Of a DNA stretch of 64,000 bases, positions 49,640-61,097 are shown piece by piece (the stretch's first letter is position 1; the number at the start of each line of letters is the position of its first letter). The translations under genes and the position numbers were made by a program. This DNA is from Bacteroidota bacterium. GTDB taxonomy: Bacteria; Bacteroidota; Bacteroidia; B-17B0; Aurantibacillaceae. Where the stretch lies: the NCBI GenBank assembly GCA_013288015.1, contig JABDCR010000007.1, positions 1 to 64,000 on the forward strand, read 5' to 3'. The notes under the pieces were generated by a model. That model was given only the letters and a program-made list of their open reading frames with translations, had not been told where the DNA came from and searched no databases.

Positions 49640-50128
49640 CTAGTTATTGTACAACTTACTTTTAAAAGTTGCGCTGTTGTATTTCTTTTTTACTTCTGTC
49701 CAAACTTTAGAGTCTGCCGCAGGTGCGGATTTTGAAAGAGCATCCCATTCTTTAGTTATGTTTCTAATACATTCTTCAAGGTGGTTGTTATCGGTAAATG
49801 TTTTTTTTGAAACATATTCTATTTGTCTTCTTAATGCACCATAATTACTCGCGACTTCCTTGTGCTTTTCTGCTCGTTCACCATATTTTAAAAAAGTTTG
49901 CAAACCAACAAGAATTGCTGCAGTCACACTCACAAGATAAAAAATTGCAGAGTAGACCCCTTCTGTTTTAACTTCTTTAGTCGCGCCTAATAAGGCCACA
50001 ATAACTAATGCAATAATTCCTAATGTATGATGATGTCTCTGTAGTTTTTTTGCGGATTCGTAGTGAGCTTCTACTGCTCGAGTTACTCGTCTGTCCCATT
50101 CTTCAAAAGTCGTCTTATAATTGGTCAT
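49640..50128 (-). CDS. SLATT-like two-TM protein
   Basis: The 162-aa protein has a short cytoplasmic N-terminus, two TM helices (HHTLGIIALVIVALLGA and YSAIFYLVSVTAAILVGLQTFL), and a helical tail with KYGERAEKHKEVASNYGALRRQIEYV, the segment typical of SLATT domains (SMODS/SLOG-associating two-TM effectors). SLATT proteins are predicted membrane pore-forming effectors in nucleotide-signalled conflict systems. Here no SMODS/CD-NTase or SLOG gene is near; the neighbours upstream are ruvB (18 nt) and an rmlD-like gene. It may therefore be an orphan effector or have a housekeeping role. Confidence 0.72.
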   Translation of the reverse strand: MTNYKTTFEEWDRRVTRAVEAHYESAKKLQRHHHTLGIIALVIVALLGATKEVKTEGVYSAIFYLVSVTAAILVGLQTFLKYGERAEKHKEVASNYGALRRQIEYVSKKTFTDNNHLEECIRNITKEWDALSKSAPAADSKVWTEVKKKYNSATFKSKLYNN

Positions 50129-52195: not shown

Positions 52196-53884
52196 ATGCT
52201 TGACTCACCCTTACACGAACATCATTTATTAAGATATAAAGTTGACATTGAGGATAAGCCCATGCGCAGCTTTTCTAAAACGGCTATTGTAAGCTTTTTT
52301 GACGAAAGCGATAAAAAAGTGGTTGTATTTAAGTATGGCGTAATTACGAAAGAAGAGATATTTGAAAAAATAAATAAAGGAGAAGACATGAACCTTAATG
52401 GGGCTTATGTATATAATTTCTCGTTAACCGATTACAGGGTTGATAAAGGCTTGGATGATAGTGTGCTTATTACACTAAAAAATTTCTCGGCCAAAAAGGC
52501 CTTTTTTGATTGCGATATTGTAAATGATTTTACCTACACAAATTTTGAAGGCGATAAAGTAGTTTTTGATTCGGCTATTTTTGGAAACGGAACCACCAAT
52601 TTTAGCAACTCGGTTTTTTGTAATGGCGATGTAAGTTTTAAAAAAACAAAATACGGTAGCGGAAGCACCAATTTTCAGAGTGTAAAATTTGGCGATGGCC
52701 TGGTTGTGTTTAACAACACCAATTTTGGTACAGGTAACCTGTCGTTTGTTGATTGTAATTTCAGTAATGGTAATGTTGATTTTAGGAACACGTATTTTGG
52801 CGATGGGCATGTAGATTTTAAGTTTGCCAAGTTTGCCAGCGGCGATTTAAGTTTTGAAAAAGCAGCCTTTGGTAAAGGAAAAAAAGATTTTAAAAATGTT
52901 GAGTTTGGCGGCGGTAAAATAGATTTCAGACGTGTTGAGTTTAACGATGGCGATGTATCGTTTGACGGAGCTGAGTTTGGCGATGGCAAAGTATCTTTTA
53001 GAAGTGCGCGTTTTGGGCATGGCGAAAAATTATTTACCCAGGCCGATTTTGCCAAAGGCGAGGCTCAGTTTGATTTGGTTGAGTTTGGTTCGGGGTCGGT
53101 AAATTTTAATAAAGCTACCGTAACCGATATTTCGTTTAAGGGTTGCGCGCTTAATTGCTATATTGATTTACGTTTTAACACCTGTCGCACGGTTGGTTTA
53201 AGCAACACCATTGTACGCGATATTTTAGATGTAAAACCCGAAGATGAAAAAGTAGTTATTTCGGTTTTTGATATATCGGGCATGCGCATTTTAGGCCGTA
53301 TGTTTATTGATTGGCGTGCTAACAATGTATATGATTTAATTTATCAGCAAACCGAAACCACCCTTTTCCAAAAGGCAGAGCAGTTTAGAATTTTGAAAGA
53401 GAATTTTAGAAACAATGGGCAGTACGAAGATGAAGATGCTGCTTACTTAGAATTTAAACGCTGCGAGGCCAAAGCAAACTTAAACGCCGCTATTGAAAAA
53501 GATAAAAAAAATGCCCTGTGGGCTTATCCTAATTTTTATTTTCAAAAATATGTGTTTGATTATGTGGGCCGTTATGCTACCGACCCAATACGGGTTTTAT
53601 CAAACATGTTTTTGGCCTTTACGGGTTTTAGTTTTATTTACTATTTTATTACTGAATATTTTCCGAGTTTTGGCACGGTGGCCACAACATTACCACCCGA
53701 GTTACAACACATACATAGTTTTGGTAACTGCGTTTACTATAGTGCTATAACCTTTTTTACCATAGGTTATGGTGATTATTTTGCCGAAGGTTACCTAAAG
53801 CCATTTGCCGCCTTTGAAGGCTTTACAGGGGTGTTTTTAATGAGTTATTTTACGGTTGCTTTTGTAAGGAAGATTTTGAGGTAG
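52196..53884 (+). CDS. Potassium-channel protein with fifteen 12-residue repeats (beta-solenoid-like)
   Basis: The 562-aa protein has an N-terminal ~120-residue domain, then fifteen back-to-back repeats of exactly 12 residues (125-304), consensus xxxxFGxGxVxF, for example RNTYFGDGHVDF and DGAEFGDGKVSF. A linker with pentapeptide-like and helical parts follows (~305-460). The C-terminal two TM helices enclose a K+ selectivity filter, FTIGYGD at ~521-527 (Ion_trans_2 type). The repeats probably form a right-handed beta solenoid, related to pentapeptide/Pentapeptide_3 proteins, in the cytoplasm. It may gate a tetrameric channel in response to a ligand or structure. No signal peptide, so the repeats stay inside. 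The next gene starts 1 nt after the stop. Confidence 0.82.
   Translation: MLDSPLHEHHLLRYKVDIEDKPMRSFSKTAIVSFFDESDKKVVVFKYGVITKEEIFEKINKGEDMNLNGAYVYNFSLTDYRVDKGLDDSVLITLKNFSAKKAFFDCDIVNDFTYTNFEGDKVVFDSAIFGNGTTNFSNSVFCNGDVSFKKTKYGSGSTNFQSVKFGDGLVVFNNTNFGTGNLSFVDCNFSNGNVDFRNTYFGDGHVDFKFAKFASGDLSFEKAAFGKGKKDFKNVEFGGGKIDFRRVEFNDGDVSFDGAEFGDGKVSFRSARFGHGEKLFTQADFAKGEAQFDLVEFGSGSVNFNKATVTDISFKGCALNCYIDLRFNTCRTVGLSNTIVRDILDVKPEDEKVVISVFDISGMRILGRMFIDWRANNVYDLIYQQTETTLFQKAEQFRILKENFRNNGQYEDEDAAYLEFKRCEAKANLNAAIEKDKKNALWAYPNFYFQKYVFDYVGRYATDPIRVLSNMFLAFTGFSFIYYFITEYFPSFGTVATTLPPELQHIHSFGNCVYYSAITFFTIGYGDYFAEGYLKPFAAFEGFTGVFLMSYFTVAFVRKILR
52568..53107 (+). repeat. Array of fifteen 36-nt coding repeats (12 aa each)
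   Basis: Translates to DSAIFGNGTTNF, SNSVFCNGDVSF, KKTKYGSGSTNF and so on to DLVEFGSGSVNF. Phe occupies position 12 in all units and position 5 in nearly all, Gly is fixed at 8, with no insertion or deletion across 540 nt. DNA identity between units is moderate, so the array is old and kept by selection on protein. Confidence 0.9.
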
Positions 53885-53885
53885 A

Positions 53886-54224
53886 ATGACAGATAAGAAA
53901 TTAATAAATGCTTGGCAAAAAGCTGCTGTTGACTTAAAATTAAATATACAGACACCTTTTGTTTTAAATAAAATAAACGGTGGAGAAATTAAATGTCTGT
54001 TGCTAATTGAAAATTTTGGCAGTAAAAAAGGAACACTTATTCTTTCTACCGATGACATGGACGACTTCGATGAACCTGAAAAGTACGGTTATTATTGCTC
54101 AGCTTTAAACCCATTTCATTATTCCAAATATAATCGCGACGGTTTTGTAGAGACATTAATTGATTGGGGTTTTTATGGGAAAGAAGATGAAAAGCCAACT
54201 TGGTATAATGGAGTTGTCTATTAG
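53886..54224 (+). CDS. Small protein of unknown function, coupled to the repeat-channel gene
   Basis: A 112-aa acidic, aromatic-rich protein (LLLIENFGSKKGTLILSTDDMDDFDEPEKYGYYCSALNPFHYSKYNRDGFVETLIDWGFYGKEDEKPTW). No signal or TM. It looks like the small immunity-type or SUFU-like proteins seen in polymorphic toxin loci, but I cannot name the family. Its ATG is 1 nt after the channel gene's TAG, so it is translated from the same mRNA and may bind the channel. Confidence 0.65.
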   Translation: MTDKKLINAWQKAAVDLKLNIQTPFVLNKINGGEIKCLLLIENFGSKKGTLILSTDDMDDFDEPEKYGYYCSALNPFHYSKYNRDGFVETLIDWGFYGKEDEKPTWYNGVVY

Positions 54225-54321: not shown

Positions 54322-54972
54322 ATGAACACAAAAACATCTTTTTATTTAATGCACCGTAGCGAGCAAACTAGTTGGTTACGAGAAAACCACCCCAATGCTT
54401 TTTTGTTGCTAACCATTATTGCCGAACGTGCCCGTTGGAACGAAAAAAACTTAACAGGCGGTTTAAAACCTTTGCAATGTGTACTTGGCACCACCGAAAT
54501 ATTATGGAAAGGTTGTACACGCATGCAATTACGAACAGCCATCAGAACCCTAATACGTAACCATCAAATTGTTACCAAGACAACCAAACGTGGAACCGTT
54601 GTAACCCTTATAAATACTGATATAGTAGAGGTTAATATAAATAAAGTTAACCACAAAATAACCAACCAACAACCATCTGAAGGTGAAAATGCAACCACTA
54701 ACCTAAAAGGTTATAAAAAGATAGAAGGATATAACCTCGACCTCCCTCTTTATTTCTCTAATGATGTTATACATGCTTTAGCTATTGAGTTAAAAAAAGG
54801 TGATGCTGAAACTAAACGCTTAACAGAGGAGTTTGTAAAACACTGCGGGGTTTTAAAAACCACTTACTCTAAAAATGCTGCGTTTGCCCTACAGCGAGAT
54901 TTTAAAGATTATGCAGAAACACATCGAGCAACTGAGCGTCTAGTGCCGTATGGTGTTGTGTATTACAAATAA
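54322..54972 (+). CDS. Orphan winged-helix protein resembling phage/plasmid replication initiators
   Basis: The 216-aa cytoplasmic protein has an N-terminal winged-helix region of the phage replisome-organiser type: LRENHPNAFLLLTIIAERARWN...GGLKPLQCVLGTTEILWKGCTRMQLRTAIRTLIRNHQIVTKTTKRGTVVTLINTDIVEVN. The 'rectifier' motif (gives speed limits: G-x-L-x-x-x-Q followed by helix-turn-helix and a wing with TKTTKRGTVVTLIN) is common in Bacteroidota mobile elements. After a linker comes a helical C-terminal domain (~140-216). No integrase, relaxase or phage gene is near. It may be a remnant or a regulator of its own promoter. Confidence 0.65.
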   Translation: MNTKTSFYLMHRSEQTSWLRENHPNAFLLLTIIAERARWNEKNLTGGLKPLQCVLGTTEILWKGCTRMQLRTAIRTLIRNHQIVTKTTKRGTVVTLINTDIVEVNINKVNHKITNQQPSEGENATTNLKGYKKIEGYNLDLPLYFSNDVIHALAIELKKGDAETKRLTEEFVKHCGVLKTTYSKNAAFALQRDFKDYAETHRATERLVPYGVVYYK

Positions 54973-57716: not shown

Positions 57717-59217
57717 TTAACTGTTTTAGGTTTGGAAGCTCGAATTTAATAAACAACCAACAATAAATTGCGAGCAATATATTATTTAAAATTAATTCTG
57801 TAAACACCGATACATGTCCTTGCCATATAAGCGACACAAAATAAAACACCAAGGCAAACCCGAAAAAGAAAACAAAGCTGCGCAGGTTATAATTTGTTTT
57901 GTAATATTTTTGTGATAGAAAATACGATACCACCATCATACTGGCATACGATATAAGTGTTGCCCAAGCCGATGCCGCATAACTGTATTTAGGGATAAAC
58001 ATAAAATTTATAAGCAATGTAATGGTAGCCCCAAATATGGTTATATAGGCGCCAAACCTTGTTTGTCCGGTTAGTTTGTACCAAACCGATAGGTTAAAAT
58101 AAATGCCCAAGCATAAATTAGCCAACAATAAAATAGGCACTACAAATAAACCCGCCCAATAATTTTCGCTCACAAAATATTTTATCCAACTCATGTTCAT
58201 CATCGTTCCTAAAAACAAAAAGGAACAAAAAATGACAAAATACTTCATCACCAAAGCATTTAATTTCCGGGAGTCTTCGCTTTTTGCATGATTAAAAAAG
58301 AAAGGCTCGGCCGCAAACTTAAAAGCTTGTATAAAAATGGTCATTAGGATGGAGATTTTGTAACAGGCACCATACACGCCCAAATCATGCATGCCAATAT
58401 CGGCAGGCAATAATTTTTTTAAAATAATGCGGTCAAAGGTTTCATTAATCATGCCGGCTAAACCAACCACCAACAAAGGCAAGGCGTATTTTAGCATTTG
58501 CAGCCACAAGGCTTTATCAAACGTAAACGTAAAGCCCATAAACTCTTTAGTAAGCAAAAGCAAACTAAAAATGTTAGCAATTAGGTTGGCTAAAAAAGCA
58601 TAACCAATGCCTATTTGCGGGTTATATAAACTACCCAGGGTAGATGTTGTTTGGTTGGCTAAATCATTCTCGTACGCATTTTTGCAGAAGTGAATAAAGA
58701 AAATATTTACACCAATGTTTACTAAAATATTGGCAATTTTAATAAAGGCAAATTTCATGGCTTTTTGTTCGGCACGCAAACGTGCAAAGGGTATAGCCAT
58801 AATAGCATCGGTAGCAATAATCAGCACCATCCATTGTATAAAGTTTACGTTATTGGCGTAATTAAGTTCAGCCGCAATAAAGTTTGAAGACACCAAGCCA
58901 ATTAAAAGAAACAGCGTTGATGTGCTTATTAAAGAAATAAGTGCGGTGCTATAAACCACATGCTTGTTTTCGTTTTTATTTACAAAATTGAAAAAAGCGG
59001 TTTCCATGCCGTACGTAAGAATTACATTTAGGAAAGAGATGTAAGCGTATATCTCCGTATTTATACCAAAATCTGCCGGGTTAGTAAACTTGTAAGTGAA
59101 GAAGGGAACCAGCCAGTAATTTAAAAACCTTGGCAAAATGGTGCTTAAACCATATACCGCAGTTTGTGATGCTAGTTTTTTTAACGGATTTGCCAATGCT
59201 AAAATTTGTACCCTCAA
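57703..59217 (-). CDS. Polysaccharide/oligosaccharide flippase (Wzx-like, MOP superfamily)
   Basis: The 504-aa integral membrane protein has ~14 predicted TM helices. It starts [33 protein letters not shown], the usual opening of Bacteroidota Polysacc_synt proteins, and contains [61 protein letters not shown]. It would flip lipid-linked sugar units across the inner membrane. There is no ATG near the start; TTG 59217 or TTG at ~59196 is used. It overlaps dut by 14 nt. No glycosyltransferase cluster is adjacent. Confidence 0.9.
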
Positions 59218-59251
59218 ATGTAAGGCTTATTTTACAAGATAAAATTTTAGA

Positions 59252-59259
59252 TACATTTG
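59252..59259 (+). promoter_or_regulatory. -7 element TACATTTG of barrel paralogue 1
   Basis: TTTTAGATACATTTGTA lies 21 nt before ATG 59280. The same sequence precedes paralogue 2, so the promoter was duplicated with the gene. Confidence 0.6.
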
Positions 59260-59279
59260 TATTTCAACACATTTTACCC

Positions 59280-60161
59280 ATGAAAAATATTTTTACCGGG
59301 CTTGCTTTTTTCCTGTTTTTTGTTTTTACCCACAGCTGTTTACAGGCGCAGTACGATACTATTAAGTACGTTAACGGCACCAGACAAGCTGTAAAAATTA
59401 TAGAAGTAACTAAAAAAGTAATTAAGTTTAAAAACCCGAAAGATACAATGGGGCCAACTTTTGTGGTTAACATCAAAAATATTGAGCAATTTATTTTGAA
59501 GGGAGGTTGCGTTGATTTAAAAACAGAAGGTTATTTAAATTGTGTAAAAGACCCCGCTTTTGGCATTATTAAAAGCGAAGATTTTACTAAAAATATTTTT
59601 AGTATAGATGCGTTTCAGTTAACAAACTCTCATTTACAAGTATCGTACGAGCATATTTTTAAAAGCAGAACATTTGGCATTATGGGCTTTTATAATCAAG
59701 GTTTTTTAAGCGGAAAGGATTCTTTAACCTATAACCGACTCGAATGTAAAATAAATGGAAGTGCTTATTATAAAAACAACTATGGCGGACTGGATTTTAA
59801 ATTTTATCCTTACGTGCATAAAAAAAATACATTTTGGGTTGCTTTGGGTATAGAAAGTGGCAGGGCAACAAACATGAATATTGATTATCATTCTAAAACG
59901 GCGGCTTATCAGTATGGAGCAATGTACTATACCGATTTGCGAAACCCTTTTGCTTACTACGAAAATAAATTATACCTGGGATACCATGTTAATGCCGGGT
60001 TTTTATATAGAATAAATAAGCATTTTATTTGTCAGGGAAGCGTTTCGGTAGGGGTAAGTCAGTTTGGTAAAGACCCAGATCCTAACCCTCTGGTTAAAAG
60101 CCCTAATTATGCTTATTATTTAAAAGCTAATTTAGGTGTACTATTAGGATACGCTTTTTAA
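59280..60161 (+). CDS. Secreted barrel-like protein, tandem paralogue 1
   Basis: The track's start at 59130 lies inside the opposite gene; ATG 59280 gives MKNIFTGLAFFLFFVFTHSCLQAQ, a signal peptide, and 293 aa. The first ~75 mature residues (YDTIKYVNGTRQAVKIIEVTKKVIKFKNPKDTMGPTFVVNIKNIEQFIL) form a small beta domain seen in many Bacteroidota proteins. The rest has barrel-like strands (FGIMGFYNQGF, YGGLDFKFYPYVHKKNTFWVALGIESGRA, LYLGYHVNAGFLYRINKHFICQGSVSVGVSQF, YYLKANLGVLLGYAF), ending on Phe as outer-membrane proteins do. Function unknown. Confidence 0.75.
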   Translation: MKNIFTGLAFFLFFVFTHSCLQAQYDTIKYVNGTRQAVKIIEVTKKVIKFKNPKDTMGPTFVVNIKNIEQFILKGGCVDLKTEGYLNCVKDPAFGIIKSEDFTKNIFSIDAFQLTNSHLQVSYEHIFKSRTFGIMGFYNQGFLSGKDSLTYNRLECKINGSAYYKNNYGGLDFKFYPYVHKKNTFWVALGIESGRATNMNIDYHSKTAAYQYGAMYYTDLRNPFAYYENKLYLGYHVNAGFLYRINKHFICQGSVSVGVSQFGKDPDPNPLVKSPNYAYYLKANLGVLLGYAF

Positions 60162-60169
60162 ATTTTAGA

Positions 60170-60177
60170 TACATTTG
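60170..60177 (+). promoter_or_regulatory. -7 element TACATTTG of barrel paralogue 2
   Basis: Identical core AATTTTAGATACATTTGTA to the promoter at 59252, 20 nt before ATG 60198. Confidence 0.6.
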
Positions 60178-60197
60178 TACTCCGACACATTTTACCC

Positions 60198-61097
60198 ATG
60201 AAAAATATTTTTGCCCGACTTGCTTTTTTCCTGTTTTTTGTTTTTGTCCAAAACTGTTTGCAGGCACAGTACGATACCATTAAATATGTTAATGGAACAA
60301 AACAAGCTGCCAAAATTATTGAAATAACTAAAAAGGTAGTTCGGTTTAAAAACCCGAAAGATACGCTGGGCCCAACTTTTGTGATTAACATCAAAAATAT
60401 CGATCAATTTATTTTAAAAGATGGTTGTATTGATTTAAGACAAGAGGGTTATTTAAATTGTGTAAAAGACCCAACTTTTGGCGCTATTAAAAACGAAGAT
60501 TTTACTAAAAATATAATCAGTATCGATGCTTTGCAGCTAACTGATTCGCATCTGCAGCTTTCGTACGAGCATATTTTTAAAAACAGAAAACTTGGAATAG
60601 TAGGTTATTATAATCAGGGTTTATTAGATGGCTTTGATACTTCTGTTTATAAGCGATTAGAAATCAAAATAAATAACAGCGCTTTTTATAAAAAAAATTA
60701 TGGCGGGTTTGATTTCAAATATTACCCAACAATTCATAAAAGAAATACTTTTTGGATTGCGTTTGGTGTTGAGGCAGGCAGGGTTGTTGAAAAAATTACA
60801 TATGATCAAACTTCACAAAAATCGATGCCTGGTTTTCAATACATACTAACAACCAACGGTTATGTTTATTCTTCAAATACTAACTATGTATCCTATTATT
60901 CAGGACCATCTACTATAAGTTTAGTAAACAGGTTTTTTATCGGTGAGCATTTTAGTAGTGGGTTTTTATTTAGAATAACAAAGCATTTAATTTGCCAGGG
61001 GAACCTTTCGGTGGGGTTAAATGAGTTTAGTGGGGTAGAAGGATATAAATATGGCGTAAAAGCAAGTGCCGGTTTATTGTTAGGCTATGCTTTTTAA
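60198..61097 (+). CDS. Secreted barrel-like protein, tandem paralogue 2
   Basis: A 299-aa paralogue of the preceding gene, with almost the same first ~150 residues (MKNIFARLAFFLFFVFVQNCLQAQYDTIKYVNGTKQAAKIIEITKKVVRFKNPKDTLGPTFVINIKNIDQFILKDGCIDL). They diverge more in the loop region around 205-250 (YDQTSQKSMPGFQYILTTNGYVYSSNTNYVSYYSGPS). It ends LLGYAF as paralogue 1 does. Signal peptide at the N-terminus. Its stop is directly adjacent to the stop of the convergent rfaE2. Function unknown. Confidence 0.75.
   Translation: MKNIFARLAFFLFFVFVQNCLQAQYDTIKYVNGTKQAAKIIEITKKVVRFKNPKDTLGPTFVINIKNIDQFILKDGCIDLRQEGYLNCVKDPTFGAIKNEDFTKNIISIDALQLTDSHLQLSYEHIFKNRKLGIVGYYNQGLLDGFDTSVYKRLEIKINNSAFYKKNYGGFDFKYYPTIHKRNTFWIAFGVEAGRVVEKITYDQTSQKSMPGFQYILTTNGYVYSSNTNYVSYYSGPSTISLVNRFFIGEHFSSGFLFRITKHLICQGNLSVGLNEFSGVEGYKYGVKASAGLLLGYAF

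Follow-up and report, generated by a model that had tools for sequence, protein, structure and literature searches.

The DNA analysed here, referred to as the window, is a stretch of 64,000 nucleotides from a Bacteroidota bacterium. One of its genes encodes a two-transmembrane (2TM) potassium channel pore preceded by fifteen 12-residue repeats of the pentapeptide class, which are predicted to fold as a long beta-solenoid. The product probably forms a tetrameric K+ channel in which four cytoplasmic N-terminal solenoids would serve as sensor or partner-binding rods that gate or anchor the channel and are coupled to TM1 via an invariant linker. Since the repeat type, the pore and the general rod-pore layout already occur elsewhere, the 12-mer channel counts as an uncharacterised variant within a known kind of protein that is apparently unstudied.

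Domain layout of the channel protein

The initial annotation had described a K+ pore fused to a long cytoplasmic solenoid. A profile match to the pore and AlphaFold models support this arrangement, the cytoplasmic location being a prediction. The start codon position is shared with the relatives of the protein, and the following features can be distinguished.

52196-53884, + strand: whole gene, 562 aa, with N-terminal cap, predicted beta-solenoid, helical linker and 2TM K+ channel pore
52196-52384, + strand: N-terminal small alpha/beta cap, residues 1-63
52385-53308, + strand: predicted beta-solenoid, residues 64-371, its irregular first and last coils flanking the 12-mer array
52532-52567, + strand: degenerate sixteenth 12-mer TYTNFEGDKVVF, residues 113-124, with D replacing G at position 8
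52568-53107, + strand: fifteen gap-free 12-mers, residues 125-304, with the Pentapeptide_3 match
52820-52999, + strand: repeats 8-12, residues 209-268, candidate binding or inter-subunit surface with the most conserved outward residues
53363-53500, + strand: helical linker with EQFRILKENFRNNGQYEDEDAAYLEFKRCEAKA, residues 390-435, nearly invariant in the family
53504-53566, + strand: helix before TM1, residues 437-457, followed by a conserved GRYxTxPxRV
53585-53659, + strand: TM1, residues 464-488, from AlphaFold and hydropathy
53696-53776, + strand: pore helix and selectivity filter, residues 501-527, with TIGYGD at 53759-53776
53795-53878, + strand: TM2, residues 534-561, with the invariant FVRKILR at its C-terminal end

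According to AlphaFold, the cap consists of three strands (residues 14-19, 28-35 and 41-50) and a helix (52-61), and no hydrophobic stretch was detected by hydropathy at the N-terminus. The TYTNFEGDKVVF unit lies directly N-terminal to the fifteen-unit array. The helix at residues 437-457 is possibly a slide helix. No RCK or other C-terminal domain is present after TM2.

The pore is well defined. Two hydrophobic segments (residues 467-489 and 537-561 by hydropathy) flank FTIGYGD, as had been claimed, and Ion_trans_2 (PF07885) matches the product above its cut-off (43.3 bits, E 3.3e-11), with TxGYGD between the two segments. Among 34 sequences, T522, G524, Y525 and G526 are invariant, and D527 is found in 97%. 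Arg and Lys are located at the end of each TM segment that is presumed to be the inner one, and the N-terminus would lie inside the cell.

The 12-residue repeat

The array keeps a strict register. Position 5 of the 12-mer is F in 14 of the 15 units and Y in one; G at position 8 and F at position 12 occur in all fifteen, G at position 6 in ten and V at position 10 in seven. Self-identity at a lag of 12 gives 66 matches vs 20.3 expected from shuffles (z = 10.8), and a lag of 24 behaves likewise. The repeats had been called fifteen exact 12-residue repeats. Their count, their register and the lack of indels (residues 125-304) hold, but they are exact in length only: family-wide, any two units of the same protein are on average 38% identical, and Tandem Repeats Finder detected no DNA tandem array, so that only the spacing is exact.

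Pentapeptide_3 (PF13576) matches the whole protein with 41.6 bits (E 1.4e-10), the curated cut-off for the whole-protein score being 27 bits, and the array alone with 43.3 bits. No PF00805 match was found in the product. A canonical pentapeptide repeat protein is defined by at least eight contiguous five-residue repeats (PMC8145042). With a period of 12 and alternating 5- and 7-residue units, the channel lies outside this definition. The pentapeptide core, a small residue at i-2 and Phe at i, appears twice per 12-mer (A3-x-F5 and V10-x-F12), and consecutive Phe are spaced 7 then 5 residues. Therefore, a five-residue unit alternates with a seven-residue unit, and the latter bears a G-x-G turn. 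Read as pentapeptide plus heptapeptide, the solenoid would form four-sided coils of 24 residues instead of 20, each made of four units with four inward Phe, which matches the four inward residues of the canonical 20-residue coil. Fifteen 12-mers would then give about 7.5 coils. A triangular 18-residue coil was rejected because it is incompatible with a repeat of 12 residues whose Phe lie at positions 5 and 12: they would not stack.

The view that the 12-mer falls outside the known pentapeptide patterns is not supported, since the Pentapeptide_3 cut-off is passed and the same 12-mer occurs in Streptomyces and Nocardiopsis. Plasmid records matching the channel protein number 75, for the most part from Streptomyces. 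Three plasmid-borne proteins fetched from these genera, annotated as 'pentapeptide repeat-containing', have the same 12-mer consensus (F..G.V.F..A.) and a Phe spacing of 5,7, and one actinobacterial 12-mer protein scores Pentapeptide_3 at E 7.6e-45. The window channel likewise carries many copies of xxAxFxxGxVxF with F spaced 5,7, as the Streptomyces 12-mer solenoids do. One Streptomyces plasmid match covering 64% of the query was set aside as a pentapeptide gene running into an unrelated recombinase. Three actinobacterial, plasmid-borne 12-mer proteins (L088, L089 and L090) show hydrophobic N-terminal segments and very uniform repeats, suggesting from their sequences that such proteins may be membrane-attached solenoids without a K+ pore. 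A plain explanation considered at the outset, Pentapeptide_3 units in an already characterised channel family, thus applies to the repeats; no such channel family was found.

Predicted structure

The AlphaFold monomer, modelled from a 34-sequence alignment, has a mean pLDDT of 86.6 and a pTM of 0.76. It places the solenoid at residues 64-371, helices at 373-457, TM1 at 464-488, the pore helix at 501-521 and TM2 at 534-561. The isolated solenoid (residues 60-376) is modelled with a pLDDT of 93.6 and a pTM of 0.89, and the DSSP string of the models contains two short strands per 12-mer. A solenoid fold is thus predicted for this part of the channel.

Foldseek, proposed as a check in the initial annotation, gave no match at E 1e-3 with the whole monomer model. 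The solenoid alone did match pentapeptide-type solenoids, the top matches being synthetic beta1 solenoids, HetL and QnrB1 (E 7e-5 to 1e-3). Superposition on solved pentapeptide proteins is poor, the best TM-score by target being 0.44 among the matches listed. In these models, low TM-scores are consistent with the same solenoid class and a different coil.

Distribution and conservation

Peptide patterns taken from the channel protein were used to scan 85,462 species genomes and gave 25 relatives, all but one of which carry a Bacteroidota name. Of the 87 genomes in the GTDB family to which the window belongs, 38 match, all but one of the matches being full-length or cut by a contig end; the order-level search took in the same 87 genomes. 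Among 396 genomes drawn from the phylum, only pore-level matches were obtained besides the window's own. The 12-mer version of the channel was encountered in a single Bacteroidota family, where its gene stands alone. The search for other proteins joining the 12-mer period to Ion_trans_2 yielded relatives within this family; the solenoid-pore proteins found elsewhere have other periods. A viral origin was rejected, as no relative was found in viral contigs or in phage records (tblastn of phage records). As a separate observation, PHROG 25690, of unknown function, matches the channel repeats at 1.9e-36 (window 52757-53179, residues 188-328), and phrog_15350 matches weakly across residues 173-558. 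Judging from these similarities, 12-mer solenoids or solenoid-pore proteins may exist in some phages or prophages.

The relatives comprise 34 distinct sequences that are 51-94% identical, with one copy per genome. Near-complete genomes assembled into one and two contigs are among those with the gene. The 217-residue repeat region aligns without gaps in all 34. The gene is under purifying selection, with a dN/dS of about 0.04 vs the closest relative, overall and in the repeats. Same-numbered repeats are 69% identical between species vs 38% among repeats within one protein; the array is therefore ancient, with a separate constrained surface on each repeat. A variable-number tandem repeat was rejected on the same figures, together with the constant length and the lack of a DNA array.

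Outward positions are more conserved in repeats 8-12 (0.82) than in the whole array (0.72), with p < 1/20000 by random draw, a value to be read with the positions not being independent. These residues are rich in conserved K/R and D/E. The conservation could instead come from subunit packing or folding. The solenoid might mainly be an assembly or stability domain, with four rods packing into the tetramer and an intracellular vestibule and no ligand. The constant array length in 34 relatives would be expected if the rods must match in register, and the conserved charges of both signs in repeats 8-12 could form inter-subunit salt bridges. However, 2TM pores such as KcsA and NaK are able to assemble without a solenoid-like domain, and other proteins of the same layout have solenoids differing in period and length. 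This explanation is considered improbable.

The most conserved parts of the channel are the linker, which is nearly invariant at 392-427, and the last 22 residues. Conservation of the linker beyond any other non-pore element suggests mechanical coupling between solenoid and pore.

Genomic surroundings and potassium uptake genes

No neighbour or partner gene is conserved across 22 loci of relatives, and the gene therefore acts alone. An operon or defence-system reading was rejected on this ground and because PADLOC gave no match for the channel product at E 1. A 162-aa 2TM protein is encoded about 2 kb upstream of the channel (49640-50128, - strand) and matches PADLOC 2TM effector/SLATT models at 4.7e-18; it apparently stands alone, flanked by an ABC-transporter gene and a RuvB-like gene. 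Its proximity, and the occurrence of small membrane effectors in bacterial defence systems, could indicate that the channel acts in a defence or toxin system as an effector that disrupts membranes. This is very improbable, as the channel has no PADLOC match, its relatives share neither the SLATT gene nor any other part of the neighbourhood, and strong purifying selection acts on a single copy per genome.

Downstream, a 112-aa orphan begins just past the channel stop codon (53886-54224, + strand), and a 216-aa product (54322-54972, + strand) has a weak DnaD-like helicase-loader match (phrog_2514, 2.7e-4). Neither ORF is conserved beside the channel in relatives, and both are possibly a mobile-element remnant. 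Further on, two adjacent ORFs of 343 and 299 aa (59130-61097, + strand) have clearly similar sequences with signal-peptide-like starts and are apparently tandem paralogues.

A further explanation is that the solenoid is a scaffold or localisation device, which tethers or clusters the channel via a partner without taking part directly in gating. Pentapeptide proteins of known function bind other macromolecules, gyrase inhibitors among others (PMC8145042). The conserved exposed patch is equally compatible with a partner surface, and the poreless Streptomyces 12-mer proteins show that the rod can work without a pore. The lack of a conserved partner gene and the strong conservation of the linker between solenoid and TM1 speak against it, and we regard a pure scaffold as rather unlikely.

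Kup is present in one to three copies in all six channel-bearing genomes checked (one of them a single contig), KdpA in one of the six and TrkH in none. The channel was thus rejected as sole K+ uptake route and, with Kup present and TrkH absent, need not be the main uptake system. From this distribution, it is probably a regulated passive conductance.

Proposed mechanism

In the preferred reading, the protein would be a stand-alone 2TM K+-selective channel, presumably tetrameric, whose regulatory part is N-terminal and cytoplasmic. Every subunit would bear one pentapeptide-type beta-solenoid, mainly of fifteen 12-mers, connected to the pore by the invariant helical linker and the helix before TM1. 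The four solenoids may bind a ligand or partner, most likely via the charged residues conserved on the surface of repeats 8-12, or they may pack together. The linker would then relay the state of the solenoid to TM1 and thereby set K+ conductance.

A broader and more tentative proposal is that pentapeptide-class beta-solenoids could act as a kind of K+ channel sensor that has so far not been described. In this view, four rods with a fixed repeat number would read a cytoplasmic ligand or partner with the face of repeats 8-12, the linker would open the pore, and lineages would swap coils of 20, 22 or 24 residues on one linker-pore module.

Solenoid-pore channels in other lineages

With the linker and pore alone as query, plasmid-borne 'pentapeptide repeat-containing' haloarchaeal proteins and an unannotated Aeromonas protein were found. 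The proteins of Halalkalicoccus jeotgali (WP_081461395.1), Salinibaculum (WP_302083717.1) and Aeromonas caviae are like the window channel in their order of solenoid, linker, pre-TM1 element and pore, in a conserved R just before TM1, in a T(I/L)GYG pore and in a C-terminus right after TM2. The window channel, with its helical linker and 2TM pore in this order, belongs to the same architecture class, which has no formal family. Linker-pore identity to the window channel is 23-35%, and the linker is alignable only weakly between distant channels. The solenoid period is 10/20 in Halalkalicoccus and 11/22 in Salinibaculum vs 12/24 in the window channel. The Halalkalicoccus protein is matched by both Pentapeptide (1.8e-29) and Ion_trans_2 (3.2e-13), as is one Bacteroidota protein from the phylum search. 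On the sequences, one general channel plan is combined with solenoids of 5+5, 5+6 or 5+7 units, and a similar linker-pore module joined to other solenoid types is what one would expect if the domain were a modular one for gating or anchoring. Five larger Bacteroidota channel-like proteins were also seen; they have a TLG(Y/F)G filter, a greater number of hydrophobic segments, a repeat-poor N-terminal part and a similar linker. Pfam recognises little in the two tested.

The claim of an undescribed system does not survive these findings, given the solenoid-linker-pore proteins in haloarchaea, Aeromonas and other Bacteroidota and the lack of a conserved partner gene. No paper on pentapeptide-fused K+ channels was found in the mostly open-access literature searched, and a review of pentapeptide proteins (PMC8145042) contains no word starting with 'channel'. 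With such a channel, the pentapeptide proteins, most of which lack a known function, would gain a measurable read-out, the ion current. The unit series 5/5, 5/6 and 5/7, carried by one kind of linker-pore module, is a natural experiment in pentapeptide coil size.

Comparison with known systems

The Knotted Solenoids of Brevundimonas (PMC13123833) share a beta-solenoid with inward-facing Phe. In contrast, they are triangular, knotted and dimeric, occur in other bacteria and have no pore described; their identity with the channel repeats was rejected on bacteria and topology. HetL (3du1), QnrB1 (2xtw), MfpA (2bm5), EfsQnr (2w7z) and the synthetic beta1 solenoids (4yfo) are placed in the same beta-solenoid class as the model by Foldseek (best E 7e-5). 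Canonical pentapeptide proteins share the small residue at i-2 and Phe/Leu at i, but they have five-residue units, 20-residue coils and no channel, and their TM-scores to the model are low. The Streptomyces/Nocardiopsis 12-mer proteins (e.g., WP_328741277.1) have in common the Phe at positions 5 and 12, the Gly at 8, the Val at 10 and the Ala at 3. They differ in that their array is not followed by a K+ pore, their repeats are more uniform and their N-terminal region is another one.

Like the window channel, MthK, NaK, KcsA and KirBac have a 2TM pore with a K+ filter. Where well studied, prokaryotic K+ channels are mostly regulated by C-terminal RCK, Kir or cyclic-nucleotide domains. In contrast to these four channels, the window channel has no C-terminal RCK/Kir domain, and its putative regulatory domain is the N-terminal beta-solenoid. 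Such a regulator, in bacteria and archaea, would add another gating or anchoring principle.
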